In this document: piece after piece, positions 13,447 through 20,415 of the stretch
How positions within the stretch are numbered: position 1 is the stretch's first letter
Layout: every line of letters begins with the position of its first letter
Assembly (NCBI GenBank): GCA_017303715.1
Contig: JAFLBZ010000002.1
Location: 62,001 to 126,000, forward strand
Reading direction: 5' to 3'
Length of the DNA: 64,000 bases
From: Rhodothermia bacterium
GTDB lineage: Bacteria > Bacteroidota > Rhodothermia > Rhodothermales > UBA2364
The notes under the pieces: model-generated
Told to the model about the DNA's origin: nothing
Database searches by the model: none
The model's input: only the letters and a program-made list of their open reading frames with translations
Translations under genes and position numbers: made by a program

Positions 13447-15177
13447 TTAATTTGGGTGATTTATTTCCTTGTTCCATGTTGGCCATAGGCTTTCGGCAAT
13501 AAATTCTTTTGCATGTTCCCAATCCTCGTTGCTCAACAATTGCAAGAATCCGGACGTTTTCTCTTGGTGGAGTTTTTTCCAGTCTTTAAATCCGTGCATA
13601 AAAGCATAACCCATCAACTCTGCCGCTTTTTTGGGATTTGTTTGCGCCTTATAACAGGCCGCCCCAAAGTACATATCGGCATAATCCTGTTCTTTCTCAA
13701 AAGGGCTGTCTATGTCGCGAAAAGACTTAATGAGGTTGTTTGCATCGCCGGTTAAAAAGCGTAACAAGCCTTTTTGCCGATGGTCTAAATCGTAGTATGC
13801 TTCCGAGAAAAGCGGGATCGCACGACTTGTTAAATCATGAAAAGCTCCTTCGACGGGAATCAAAATGGCACGTCCAGCAAGGGGCTGATTGCGGTCATTG
13901 GCCGAGGTAAATGTTCCAAACATACGCTTGATTTCACTTCGCGGGACATCGGTAGAATAGAATAAAAAGAAGCCCGGATAGGGTTGATTTTCTTCATCTA
14001 GGCGTGTATGTAGCCGTATAGAAAGTAAAGATTTATCTATTTTAATCGCACGTCCTCGATACAGTGCCGAAGTTGGTGTTACCAAGCCCATAATCGCAAT
14101 ACCGTTTGGGTGAATGCACAAAGGACGTTCGTAGATATCTTTACGGTCACTAGATAAGGTATAGCAATAATAACACCCTGTAATCTGCTTAAGCGCTTTG
14201 ATCGGGTATGTTTTTTCGTTCAATTCTAGTTTCTCAAACAACGCCACCGATTCCATAAAGTCGTCGCGGTTGCCCATGAAAAAGGGAATGAGTTCCTTTT
14301 TATCCCGAATCTTATCAAATAAGTTGGGGTCTTTAAGCAAGATTTCTTTGGGTTCGTGTGTCTTAAAATCCGCCTGAATTCCTTCGTGGTTTTCCCGAAT
14401 ACGGTACAAGCGAATCCGTCCCGCCATAGGGTCCTCACTGCGTTTGCCCTTCCCCGCATAAACGCCTGTAATCACGCCTTGTGGCCAAGGAGACTTTGTC
14501 TCAAAACGATCTTGGAGAACAAAGAAGTATTTGTAATATTTGTGTTTATCAAAGTCGTGTTCACTCAGTTCAAACTCGCCCAGCAATATCCGGCTATGCG
14601 GTACGGGCTTTAACGAACCTTTGTAATTCCGATCTATAGCGGTCATTTTGGAGCGTATTTGCACCTCCCCTTCACCTGTAAGTAGTACCACCAAAACAGA
14701 TAACGTTTGGGTTTCTGGCAAAATAATATATGCCTCGTATAGTCCCGCCAAGTTTGCAATGGTATCGGAGCCTTGTGGATGGAGTGATTGCGTTACTGGC
14801 TTAATAACTTGTTGTACATTGAGCAAATGCGCCGTAACAAATGCCTTAAAGTCCTCATAACCAATATAATTTGCAAGCGCATCGTAGAAAGGTTCTGATT
14901 GTGAGGAGACATTAAAGTAACCATCAGGCTTTTTATTGTGCTCAAGCGAACGTTTGTACAGCCATTCCTCGTTTAATCTCGTCTGGGTTTTTTCGTGAAT
15001 TGCCGTCCGTATATGTGGCAACTCCTTCTTATAAGTTCCTCGTCCATATAATTGACTAATACTAACTTTTTGGTCTCTAAATTTAGACTGATACAAGTCT
15101 GATGATGTAAATTCCTCCATGACCTTATCGTGCAGTAATTTAAAGAGGTCTTCAGGATATTTATCATTGGTAGCCAT
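13447..15177 (-). CDS. 576-aa protein with HTH-like N-terminus and an internally duplicated beta domain, unknown function
   Basis: No named family recognised. Residues 35-115 ('VSISQLYGRGTYKKELPHIRTAI...FYDALANYIGYEDFKAFV') resemble the helical N-terminal module of Bacteroidota signalling proteins that ends in 'L..YIGY.DF..F'. Then come two diverged copies of one domain, about 142-260 and 330-442. Matching landmarks: 'LAGLYEAY'/'ITGCYYCY', 'YKGSLKPV'/'YRGRAIKI', 'YKYFFVLQ'/'PGFFLFYS', 'DPMAGRIRLYRI'/'QPLAGRAILIPV'. The last 100 residues look like TPR-type helices ('KKAAELMGYAFMHGFKDWKKL'). No signal peptide or membrane segment, so it is probably cytosolic. It stands alone, convergent with the phosphate transporter and divergent from the coiled-coil gene. 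A sensor or regulatory role is a guess. Confidence 0.75.
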   Translation of the reverse strand: MATNDKYPEDLFKLLHDKVMEEFTSSDLYQSKFRDQKVSISQLYGRGTYKKELPHIRTAIHEKTQTRLNEEWLYKRSLEHNKKPDGYFNVSSQSEPFYDALANYIGYEDFKAFVTAHLLNVQQVIKPVTQSLHPQGSDTIANLAGLYEAYIILPETQTLSVLVVLLTGEGEVQIRSKMTAIDRNYKGSLKPVPHSRILLGEFELSEHDFDKHKYYKYFFVLQDRFETKSPWPQGVITGVYAGKGKRSEDPMAGRIRLYRIRENHEGIQADFKTHEPKEILLKDPNLFDKIRDKKELIPFFMGNRDDFMESVALFEKLELNEKTYPIKALKQITGCYYCYTLSSDRKDIYERPLCIHPNGIAIMGLVTPTSALYRGRAIKIDKSLLSIRLHTRLDEENQPYPGFFLFYSTDVPRSEIKRMFGTFTSANDRNQPLAGRAILIPVEGAFHDLTSRAIPLFSEAYYDLDHRQKGLLRFLTGDANNLIKSFRDIDSPFEKEQDYADMYFGAACYKAQTNPKKAAELMGYAFMHGFKDWKKLHQEKTSGFLQLLSNEDWEHAKEFIAESLWPTWNKEINHPN

Positions 15178-15697
15178 AGACTTGGAATAGTTTTATCTCC
15201 AAACTGAATAATAAAATATATCAAAAAGAGCATAGATTTTACAAATTTTTTTACATAACCTTGGCTCCTCTGTAACTTGCTATGTTTAAAATCGTCAATT
15301 CACTATTAATTAAAATTGATGCGATCCTATATGTGCGCACAAAAAAGATGTTCACTGCACAATGTGCAAAACAAGGCGCACAGAAGCATTAGGATTCGGC
15401 CCAAAATGCAAAAAATGCTTCTGTTTAGTGATTATTTGCAAATGGGAAGATTCCCATTCTATTTTATTTACAGATTCCAAATCGGAATCAACATTCAACC
15501 TCAATCAACCTCAAAATCATGTATCACTCAACAAACCTGTCTGCCCTCACCGCGCCCTCAAACCGCCACACCTTGAGCAACGTGTGCCCGCCCAAGTTCG
15601 AGATCAACGCTTCCGTACTGTACGCTTTGTGTATTGAGATAGAATTGTACTGGCTTAACAACGACTCCTCTCCACCTCTTCGTAACAAAACATCGCT
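15178..15697. other. 520-bp intergenic region with three hairpins, no convincing gene
   Basis: Short frames exist here in several frames, but none has coding character. The first part (15190-15330) is AT-rich and should hold the promoters of the two divergent genes. The middle has three tight inverted repeats within 110 bp: 15381-15390/15414-15423 (10 bp), 15441-15448/15451-15458 (8 bp) and 15473-15478/15484-15489 (6 bp). The last 200 bp before the ATG at 15698 would be a long 5' leader. A structured leader or small RNA is possible. Confidence 0.4.
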
Positions 15698-16453
15698 ATG
15701 AAACATGATACCAAAATCAGCGGCTTCTTGTTGGGTGTAATTATTGTTGCTGAAGCCGGAAAAAAACTTTTAGGGTCAATCGTTCCGCCGGAAGAACAAG
15801 AAAAAAGGCGCAAACAAAAATATTCGCCTTATTATGACCCTCGCTGGAGAGCGACACCACCTGCATATAACATCCAAGTGCAGGTTATCAATAACTCACC
15901 CATGCAGAGGCAGGATTCCGTAGGGATTACCGCTCCTGCCAAAATTGCGAATACACCTCAGTTATTGCCGGATGCCCCGTCCCAACCCATCCGCCAGACG
16001 TTAAGCGACCGCGACCAAGAAGAGTTGCAACGTTATGCAAAGGGATTAGAACATGCATATTATACCTTGCATGTTAGATTGAAGAGCCTCGAACATGAAA
16101 ACTCTGTACTTATCGAGGAGCATAAAAACTTGAATAGCACCATCGCGCAGATGAAAGCGGAACTCCACAAAGCGAACCATCAAGTGCATATTCAAGAAAT
16201 GCTCGTGCAAAAAAACTTGGTCGCTACTAAGGATATCTTGTATTTACTCGATGAGGAGGTGTCAAATCTGAAACAAAGAATTAGAGATTTAGAATCAACG
16301 TTAGAACAAAAAGATGTCGAGATAGCCAGTCTAACTAGCGTGAAACAGCTATTGATGATGTTGTATAGCCCCAAAGATGGTTCTCCCATTGACCCCAGCG
16401 TCATCCGCTTGAACCCTACCGAGTCTGATTCTGCCTCCCCGTCGAAACCCTAA
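15698..16453 (+). CDS. Coiled-coil protein with N-terminal membrane-like segment, unknown function
   Basis: 251 residues from ATG 15698. Residues 8-28 ('SGFLLGVIIVAEAGKKLLGSIV') could be a membrane anchor, followed by a basic patch ('EEQEKRRKQKY') and a Pro-rich linker. Residues 105-225 form a long heptad-patterned coiled coil ('LKSLEHENSVLIEEHKNLNSTIAQMKAEL', 'LDEEVSNLKQRIRDLESTLEQKDVEIASL'). The tail is Ser/Pro-rich. The layout suits a membrane-tethered scaffold or tether, but no family is recognised. It is preceded by the hairpin-rich leader region and closed by a strong terminator, so it is likely a single-gene transcript. Confidence 0.65.
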   Translation: MKHDTKISGFLLGVIIVAEAGKKLLGSIVPPEEQEKRRKQKYSPYYDPRWRATPPAYNIQVQVINNSPMQRQDSVGITAPAKIANTPQLLPDAPSQPIRQTLSDRDQEELQRYAKGLEHAYYTLHVRLKSLEHENSVLIEEHKNLNSTIAQMKAELHKANHQVHIQEMLVQKNLVATKDILYLLDEEVSNLKQRIRDLESTLEQKDVEIASLTSVKQLLMMLYSPKDGSPIDPSVIRLNPTESDSASPSKP

Positions 16454-16626: not shown

Positions 16627-19600
16627 ATGAACGCCCCTCAAAGAAGTTTCTTCATGCGTCGCCAAATCTTCTTGGCGTACCACCTTCAAAATGCGCCAAT
16701 TGGGAACCTTCAGGATCTGCAAACTGCGCGCATCATCACGCAAAAAATCAATGCCAATCGCTCACCCGAAAAAACCATACGGGCCAGTGATCTGAGTGCC
16801 GGCGCACTGATTCTGGAGTCTCTCGGAGGCATCATCCATTGGTATAAGCAAAAGGCCGGACGAGACATTCTTCTTGATTCTTACGAAGCCCTTAGACGTC
16901 AGATTGGCGAAGAAGCCCTCCAAAAAACCTTTCTCGCCTTCATCGAACTTTATCCTCCCAAAGCCCTTCTGGATGGACGGATGACGGCAGATCAATACAT
17001 ATCTGGTCGCGAAAGTGCCTTGTTGGAAGAGTTGACCCTCCTTCGGTTGGCCAACGAAAATCCTGCTTTTGCATCTTTACGAGAATTGTTTGACGATACA
17101 GAGTTGGTCAATAATTCACCGTATTTGCGTGTTTATGAAACCCTTCGCACCTATTTGGTTTCTAAAGCGCCCCGCATATCAACAGACAACCTTTCTTCAA
17201 GCCTAAGCGACGAAGAAACAGATTTATGGGAAATGCTCACCCATCTGTTTAGGCGCTATCCAAACTCGCTCGAAGCGCAATTGGCCTTTCTTCGTGGTCG
17301 TTGGGGTTCTCGACTGGCGGATGTAATCCCAGCCTTTGAAATCCGCTTTTTGCGCAGTGAAGACTACATCCGCGAGGAGACGCGCCCTGTTTTTCCGATC
17401 ACCGACGATAACCCACCGCCACCAGCACCTTCGGCATTTGATTGGCAGAAAGGAATGCGGGCCATTATTCAAGAAGATGGCGGAGACGAACCAGAAGCCT
17501 TCAGTGAAGACCTCGACTGGATGCCGAATGTCGTGATGATCGCAAAGTCAACACTGGTGTGGCTCTTCCAACTGTCCCAGCAATATGGCCGTGAAATTAC
17601 ACGATTAGACCAAGTTCCAGACGAAGAACTGGATAAACTCCGGTCGTGGGGGATAACGGCACTTTGGTTTATTGGGATTTGGGAGCGCTCAAAAGCCTCC
17701 GAACGCTTTAAACAGCGGATGGGGAATCCTGAAGCGACCGCATCGGCCTACTCGCTTTATGACTACGAAGTGGCGTCGGCGCTTGGTGGGCGAGAAGCCT
17801 TTTTGAATCTTAAAGCGCGTGCATGGCGTCGTGGCATTCGTATTGCGTCTGATATGGTTCCCAACCACACGGGCTTAGATGGAGAATGGGTCTTACAACA
17901 CCCAGACCGTTTTATCCAGTTGCCTAACTCGCCTTATCCCGCTTATGCCTTCACCAACGAAGACCTATCGGACGATCCCAATATTGGGATTTTTATGGAA
18001 GATCATTATTACAATCGCACAGATGCCGCTGTGGTCTTTAAGCGTTTAGACCGCAGAACAGGTGAAGAACGGTATATTTATCATGGCAACGATGGAACAG
18101 GGTTGGCTTGGAACGATACGGCACAGATCAATTTCCTCAATCCAGAGGCCAGAGAAGCGGTTATCCAAACCATTTTACGTGTTGCACGCGATTTCCCCAT
18201 CATCCGATTGGATGCGGCTATGGTACTAGCGAAGCGGCATATACATCGGCTTTGGTTCCCTGAACCCGGAAAAGGGGGGGATGTAGCCAGTCGTTCGGAA
18301 CATGGCCTCACAAAAGAGGAATTTGAGCAAGCTATGCCAGAAGAGTTTTGGCGTGAGGTCGTGGATCGTGTGGCCATCGAAGCGCCAGATACGCTCCTCT
18401 TGGCGGAGGCATTCTGGATGCTTGAGGGCTATTTCGTGCGCACCTTGGGTATGCACCGCGTGTATAATTCTGCTTTTATGCACATGCTTCGCGATGAGCG
18501 CAACGATGAATTTCGGTTCCAAATTACCTCGACGCTCGAATATGATCCGGAAATCCTGAAGCGGTACGTGAACTTCCTAAATAATCCAGACGAAAAAACC
18601 GCCGTTGAACAATTTGGTAAGGGTGACAAATACTTTGGTGTCACGATTCTGATGCTTACTTTGCCCGGTTTACCGATGATTGGGCATGGGCAAATAGAAG
18701 GTTTATCGGAAAAATATGGCATGGAGTACCGCCGCTCGTATTACAACGAGACGCCCGATTTGCACCTAATGGAACGACACCAGAGGGAGATTTTCCCCAT
18801 TGCCCATAAACGGTATTTGTTTGCTGGCGTAACGGATTTTCGCTTCTACGATTTTCTCCACAATGGCGAAGTGAACACAAACGTGATGGCCTATACCAAT
18901 AGAGCCGGCAATGAGCGCGCCTTGGTACTTTTCAACAATTCGTACCATCGTTCACAGGGTGTTTTCCGTTCTTCTGTAAAGTTCAGGAATAAACAACGTG
19001 AAACCCAGCCTGAAACACCCGTTTTTGAGACTCAGCATGTTGCCGAGGCGCTCGGTTTAAAAAAGGGCACAAAGTGGTTTACCATTTTCCGTGACCAGAT
19101 ATCTGGCTTGGAATATCTGCGCTCGAATGCAGTGGTCTGGGGTAGAGGAATTTCCATCTCCTTGAGTGGTTATCAAAGTATGGTTTTCACCGACTTTCGT
19201 GAAGTAGAAGACACCATAGGGCTGTATCGCGAACTGCACGATAGTTTGCATGGACATGGGGTTTCTAATGTAGAAGAGGAAATTAAATTACGACAGTTAA
19301 GACCGCTACATGAGCCATTTGTAGAGGTGTTGAGCACACTTCTTGAGGCATTTGAAAGTGACGCTCCACTTTATATTGTTCAACCAGAAACCTTTTCTCA
19401 TACCTATGGCGCTTTTATCCGAGAAGCCGCCACCAGAACAGGAGGTGTGGACATAGATCTCGATAGTTTGGTACAAGAAATACAGCAACTTGCAGAAGCT
19501 GTTATTGCCTACGAACACCAACGCAAAGAACACCCAACCCCCGCTTTACCCGAAAATATTCCGGGATGGGGGAATGAAGAACCGTTTCCACACGCCGAGC

Positions 19601-20415
19601 CAGAACATCCCTATTTGGATATGGTTCGGTTCCGAAATGCCACCCTGGCTGGATGGCTGGCCGTGAACCAATTAGGACGTCTTACGAGCAAAAATGGCCG
19701 TAACGTGGGACATAAAAGTCGTGGCTTTATTGAGGCTTGGTTGTTGGACAAACCCATGCACCGCGTGTTTAGGGAACATGGCTTAGGTTCAGAGGATGCT
19801 GGAGTTGCTGTGGTATATGTATGCCTCCTGACCAGCCAGAAAAATTGGTTCAAAACCCACAAAACCAATACCGAGATTTGGCAAAACGTGATCCATGACC
19901 TCTTTAATGACCCTCTAGCCCTGCACTATATGGATGTTCATGAGTGGGGAGGTGTACGCTATTTCCGCAAAGAACGCTTCGAGGAACTCTTGCACCTATT
20001 GGGCGTTTTAGCGAAAAGACAACACCACCGTAGCGGGCATCAAACGCTTTCTAATATTAATGCCCTCTTGGATGGCTTCAGTGTTTTTGCACAACAAGCT
20101 GGCTATCGGTGTGATGCAATACTGGAAACGGATTTTGCAGCCCTCGGCTTGATTCCAAGCGAGCAAAATACCACAACCGATGAGGCCGCCGCCGATTTAC
20201 TCACTCAAACAACCGATACTATGGCTTACAAGTTTGAAGTTTATCAAGACAAAAAAGGGGAATACCGTTTCCGCTTTAAAGCATCTAATGGCCAAGTGAT
20301 GTTTGCAAGTCAGGGCTATGAACAAAAAGCATCGGCCCTGAAAAGCATCGAAAGCATCCGAGCAAATGCCGCCGATGCGATTATTGAGGAGGTGGAAAAC
20401 AAAGAGGACACCTAA
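16627..20415 (+). CDS. GH13 alpha-amylase-family enzyme fused to a C-terminal YegP/DUF1508-like domain
   Basis: 1262 residues from ATG 16627. An N-terminal helical region of about 290 residues precedes a GH13 barrel: region I 'DMVPNH' (409-414), region II 'IIRLDAAMVL' with nucleophile Asp529, region III 'LLAEAFWML' with acid/base Glu594, region IV 'NNPDEKTA' with Asp655, where the usual His of 'NHD' is Pro. The catalytic triad is present. After a beta-rich and then helical part, residues 1199-1262 ('KFEVYQDKKGEYRFRFKASNG') match one YegP/DUF1508 repeat. No signal peptide, so the enzyme is probably cytosolic and acts on intracellular alpha-glucans or trehalose-like sugars; the substrate cannot be read from sequence. 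It stands alone between gaps. Confidence 0.85.
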   Translation: MNAPQRSFFMRRQIFLAYHLQNAPIGNLQDLQTARIITQKINANRSPEKTIRASDLSAGALILESLGGIIHWYKQKAGRDILLDSYEALRRQIGEEALQKTFLAFIELYPPKALLDGRMTADQYISGRESALLEELTLLRLANENPAFASLRELFDDTELVNNSPYLRVYETLRTYLVSKAPRISTDNLSSSLSDEETDLWEMLTHLFRRYPNSLEAQLAFLRGRWGSRLADVIPAFEIRFLRSEDYIREETRPVFPITDDNPPPPAPSAFDWQKGMRAIIQEDGGDEPEAFSEDLDWMPNVVMIAKSTLVWLFQLSQQYGREITRLDQVPDEELDKLRSWGITALWFIGIWERSKASERFKQRMGNPEATASAYSLYDYEVASALGGREAFLNLKARAWRRGIRIASDMVPNHTGLDGEWVLQHPDRFIQLPNSPYPAYAFTNEDLSDDPNIGIFMEDHYYNRTDAAVVFKRLDRRTGEERYIYHGNDGTGLAWNDTAQINFLNPEAREAVIQTILRVARDFPIIRLDAAMVLAKRHIHRLWFPEPGKGGDVASRSEHGLTKEEFEQAMPEEFWREVVDRVAIEAPDTLLLAEAFWMLEGYFVRTLGMHRVYNSAFMHMLRDERNDEFRFQITSTLEYDPEILKRYVNFLNNPDEKTAVEQFGKGDKYFGVTILMLTLPGLPMIGHGQIEGLSEKYGMEYRRSYYNETPDLHLMERHQREIFPIAHKRYLFAGVTDFRFYDFLHNGEVNTNVMAYTNRAGNERALVLFNNSYHRSQGVFRSSVKFRNKQRETQPETPVFETQHVAEALGLKKGTKWFTIFRDQISGLEYLRSNAVVWGRGISISLSGYQSMVFTDFREVEDTIGLYRELHDSLHGHGVSNVEEEIKLRQLRPLHEPFVEVLSTLLEAFESDAPLYIVQPETFSHTYGAFIREAATRTGGVDIDLDSLVQEIQQLAEAVIAYEHQRKEHPTPALPENIPGWGNEEPFPHAEPEHPYLDMVRFRNATLAGWLAVNQLGRLTSKNGRNVGHKSRGFIEAWLLDKPMHRVFREHGLGSEDAGVAVVYVCLLTSQKNWFKTHKTNTEIWQNVIHDLFNDPLALHYMDVHEWGGVRYFRKERFEELLHLLGVLAKRQHHRSGHQTLSNINALLDGFSVFAQQAGYRCDAILETDFAALGLIPSEQNTTTDEAAADLLTQTTDTMAYKFEVYQDKKGEYRFRFKASNGQVMFASQGYEQKASALKSIESIRANAADAIIEEVENKEDT

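Follow-up and report, generated by a model that had tools for sequence, protein, structure and literature searches.

The gene at positions 13,447–15,177 (reverse strand) of the 64,000-nucleotide stretch of Rhodothermia bacterium DNA analyzed here (the window) most likely encodes a one-component transcriptional regulator that senses a ligand in the cytosol, a reading to which we assign a probability of about 0.5. By sequence comparison, its product belongs to an unnamed Bacteroidota family predicted to have two tandem β-barrels of a size to take up a ligand (the twin-barrel family), within which it is divergent; no description of the family was found in the literature and libraries searched. 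The window copy is an outlier of this family, in which a helical tail has been added and the usual receptor neighbor replaced by a coiled-coil gene. The features are as follows.

13447–15177, reverse strand: gene for a 576-residue protein with an N-terminal module, two β-barrel domains, and a helical tail (open reading frame, orthologs, purifying selection, and family profile, E 1.1e-10)
14803–15177, reverse strand: N-terminal module (N-module), residues ~1–125 (QLYG.G...P...N..WLY...Y.GY..F), mostly helical, a putative DNA-binding head (family alignment; pLDDT ~90 in the window model)
14392–14754, reverse strand: first domain (D1), residues ~142–262, a predicted 8-stranded barrel (AF2; match to Cap15/avidin-type barrels)
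14191–14391, reverse strand: inter-barrel linker, residues ~263–329, longer than in relatives (alignment A9)
13852–14190, reverse strand: second copy of the barrel domain (D2), residues ~330–442 (family D1 profile match at 378–439; model strands at 334–441)
13450–13851, reverse strand: C-terminal helical tail, residues ~443–576 (helices in the window model; only in the genus of the window)
15178–15697, no strand: intergenic region common to the gene and its divergent partner, partly conserved in three species (alignment A10)
15698–16453, forward strand: divergent partner encoding a small coiled-coil protein, its position kept in three species (weak coiled-coil Pfam matches only)

Orthologs with 65–66% identity are present in two other species of the genus. 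The dN/dS ratio is ~0.09 between the window gene and the ortholog 66% identical to it, and 0.115 between the two orthologs, the remaining species pair being saturated; these low values indicate purifying selection, and the 576-residue open reading frame is therefore a working gene. D1 is the best conserved part among these species, being 80% identical to that of an ortholog as against 50% for the N-module, a pattern that would fit retention of the ligand with a switch of target. No transmembrane segment was detected by hydropathy, the best 19-residue value (1.56, as compared with 2.26 in a Cap15 protein) lying inside the first barrel. The helical tail is missing from relatives outside the genus in the family alignment, and its C-terminal 106 residues have no match in Pfam.

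An initial scan of genomes with just the one protein as the query gave no match. A search with a profile of the orthologs then yielded one distant relative, followed by three more, and a scan of genome contigs extended the family to 80 loci from Flavobacteriaceae, Saprospiraceae, Flammeovirga, Labilibacter, Pedobacter, Foetidibacter, and others, with the architecture N-module–D1–D2 in ~410 residues. Matches in L009, L013, L114, and L115 (a PAS kinase, a MazG-like gene, a TonB-dependent receptor, and an SCO1-like gene) were judged to be chance on inspection. Conversely, a profile built from the family only, containing no sequences from the window, found the window gene in its own genome at an E value of 1.1e-10 through the N-module. 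The window protein has both the family-type motif of this module (QLYG.G...P...NGKYLY...Y.GY) and the two tandem domains of ~115 residues. Among 245 genomes of its class, the gene is confined to the genus of the window, a count obtained with profile A7, which includes the window protein and hence shows absence elsewhere, not membership. No relatives were found in viral contigs, plasmids, or phages. A match to one known undivided family, raised by the earlier note as a refutation, did not turn up: the window protein has no usable match in Pfam, NCBIfam, PADLOC, PHROGs, or PDB sequences, and none of 58 family members matches Pfam.

The earlier note had proposed a duplicated domain of about 115 residues ending in P.AGR..L, and the wider family bears this out. 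D1 ends with PMAGRIRL (residues 250–257) and D2 with PLAGRAIL (residues 432–439). Taken by itself, the window copy shows no similarity of D1 to D2 above that of shuffled sequences in pairwise alignment (518 of 2000 shuffles reach its score), whereas in the orthologs the two halves align above shuffles (6 and 10 of 2000). For the wider family, comparison of the D1 and D2 profiles by hhalign gave a score of 33.6, against a mean of 11.9 and a maximum of 18.4 in 60 column-shuffled control trials. The family D1 profile, moreover, picks up residues 378–439 of the window protein, within D2, with the same P.AGR end motif. Sequence comparison thus identifies D1 and D2 as homologous, secured by the orthologs and the wider family rather than by the window copy alone.

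Both domains are predicted to fold as β-barrels. The AF2 model of a family member from Zobellia (mean pLDDT, 88) has eight strands in each domain. The model of the window protein is weaker (mean pLDDT, 60; N-module, ~90; D1, ~60; D2, partly below 50), and its input alignment A9 was picked among 400 random subsets for seven aligned anchor residues, which biases it towards the family layout. Within this limit, its strands at residues 145–261 and 334–441 agree well with the domain boundaries drawn in the earlier note (142–260 and 330–442); in the Zobellia prediction the two domains come out as barrels, not as differing folds. For D1 of the Zobellia protein, the top natural structural match is the cyclic-dinucleotide receptor Cap15 (Z-score, 9.5; 90 of 108 residues; 2.4 Å), ranked below two designed barrels, with the next natural match at a Z-score of 7.7; for the low-confidence window model, Cap15 (10.3) ties with streptavidin (10.2). 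A tandem pair of domains of the ligand-binding type, as suggested from the sequence at the outset, is well supported by the homologous duplicated barrels and by their fold match to Cap15, avidin, and lipocalin barrels, and D1 and D2 likely form a tandem ligand-sensing pair. A barrel fold in common with Cap15 does not show a common ligand.

The N-terminal module fared differently. It had been taken as HTH-like and typical of Bacteroidota signaling proteins, but its profile found only the twin-barrel family in 178 genomes of the phylum, to which the module thus appears specific in the genomes sampled. It has no sequence match in Pfam or the PDB and none to a known DNA-binding family, and the HTH-like label is not established; the fold searches, run with whole models, were filled by barrel matches, not by the N-module.

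In 70 of 75 loci, relatives of the window gene stand head to head with a TonB-dependent receptor gene, mostly at a spacing of 60–185 bp. Counted by cluster, the arrangement holds in 32 of 34 at 70% identity and in 7 of 8 at 50%; since the seeds of the scan already had a receptor neighbor, the figure may be too high where close relatives are concerned. The receptor neighbor persists in members just 24–35% identical to the query. Behind the receptor lies an NCS1-type (nucleobase-type) permease together with a ~350-residue protein in 45 loci, or a hydantoinase/oxoprolinase-type protein in 21 loci. The ~350-residue protein (positions 1388–2443 of L020 and equivalents), kept between receptor and permease in these 45 loci, has no Pfam or NCBIfam match. 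The intergenic regions of the hydantoinase type contain conserved, regularly spaced TTCC elements (2.9 per region, compared with 0.94 in shuffles; GGAA directly before the gene start was trimmed as a probable ribosome-binding site). Those of the permease type have a different, AT-rich palindromic element in about half of the cases, usually 25 bp before the gene. Both elements are candidate operators only.

The description of the window gene as standing alone holds in part. No head-to-head TonB-dependent receptor is present there, the nearest candidate on the contig lying ~130 kb away, with ~30 such receptors elsewhere in the genome. The gene nevertheless has a conserved divergent partner, the coiled-coil gene, which starts 520 bp off in the opposite direction and is followed by an α-amylase-type gene for 1262 residues, in an order kept in three species. 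The latter protein (window positions 16,627–20,412) combines an α-amylase catalytic domain with a C-terminal DUF1508. For input and output, both unknown in the earlier reading, the TonB-dependent receptor operons that stand head to head with the relatives now give a partial lead.

Because of this head-to-head layout, of which regulation is the best single reading, we propose that the helical N-module would bind the DNA between the gene and its divergently transcribed neighbor, and that the tandem barrels would bind a small molecule, thereby altering the action of the N-module. In relatives, the target would mostly be the head-to-head receptor operon, serving to import and degrade nitrogen-containing compounds, and the barrels would recognize the substrate taken up or a derivative of it; the window copy retains the architecture, has the coiled-coil gene as a different partner, and has gained the helical tail. 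This proposal draws on the family membership at E 1.1e-10, the repeats, the barrels, the head-to-head receptors, the intergenic elements, and the conserved divergent partner in the window, while the absence of a hydrophobic segment like that of Cap15 also counts for a cytosolic sensor. Against it stand the N-module with no match to a known DNA-binding family and, in the window, the lack of an adjacent receptor and the lower conservation of the N-module (50%) than of D1 (80%). In addition, a head-to-head position can also mean common expression without regulation, and the elements conserved between the genes could instead belong to promoters or serve another factor as binding sites.

The main rival explanation, possible though doubtful in our estimate, is that the protein is a cytosolic ligand-binding or adaptor protein acting through protein–protein contact, for example with the import machinery or the coiled-coil partner, and not through DNA, the head-to-head arrangement reflecting co-expression only. 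The failure to match any known DNA-binding family agrees with such an adaptor, as do the helical tail and coiled-coil neighbor of the window copy, which suggest protein contacts; however, tight head-to-head spacing with conserved intergenic elements across divergent clusters is how a regulator and its target are usually arranged. It seems very improbable to us that a transferred gene has lost its receptor operon and left the window copy as a remnant with no present role: the restriction to one genus among the 245 class genomes and the missing adjacent receptor would suit a remnant, but purifying selection in the two measurable of three species pairs and a divergent partner kept in three species argue against it.

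The Cap15 match raises the further idea, improbable on balance, of a nucleotide second-messenger receptor, possibly linked to defense, whose barrels, like those of Cap15 and OptE, would bind cyclic dinucleotides. Cap15 is indeed the top natural match of D1 (Z-score, 9.5; 10.3 for the window model), and S-2TMbeta proteins use barrels of similar kind to bind cyclic dinucleotides (PMC12657218). Yet the window model ties with streptavidin barrels, and a sequence kinship of D1 and D2 to Cap15 was looked for and not found, the profile comparison falling within the shuffled range. No PADLOC match was obtained, and the Cap15/S-2TMbeta profile (PF18153) matched neither the window protein nor anything else in its genome. 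The neighbors serve nutrient uptake, and the identified ones include no nucleotidyltransferase. Fusions of the single domain to nucleases, TIR domains, or proteases, which the earlier note had named as pointers to defense or signaling, were absent from 178 genomes, giving no such pointer to defense. A combined version, in which twin Cap15-like barrels let a family of cytosolic regulators respond to a nucleotide-type second messenger and so control TonB-dependent uptake operons throughout Bacteroidota, seems to us quite improbable; if true, it would link a defense-type receptor fold to nutrient import. As a separate observation, L015 encodes at positions 1324–1914 a 196-residue protein without a Pfam match, whose N-terminal hydrophobic segment and one barrel-like domain form a layout like that of Cap15.

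If the regulator reading is right, the family would provide the probable regulator of a class of uptake operons that recurs in Bacteroidota, and an instance of a Cap15-type barrel used in tandem outside defense; as candidate ligands, the adjoining permeases and hydantoinases suggest ring compounds rich in nitrogen. Among known systems, streptavidin/avidin and lipocalin-type barrels resemble D1 and D2 in being meander β-barrels of comparable size, and they score on a par with Cap15 for the window model, but they are mostly secreted single-barrel binders with no sequence relation found. Cap15 (S-2TMbeta, PF18153) is alike in its small closed 8-stranded barrel. It differs in having two transmembrane segments before the barrel and in lying among CBASS neighbors, whereas the twin-barrel proteins, with no detectable sequence relation to it, have tandem barrels behind a helical N-terminal module and no such segments, and lie among nutrient-uptake genes. 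From one-component regulators they differ in the N-module, which belongs to no recognized DNA-binding family, in the use of tandem barrels as the sensor part, and in that their regulation is presumed from the gene layout; they share with them an N-terminal module ahead of C-terminal domains of ligand type, and a gene placed head to head with that of the likely target.
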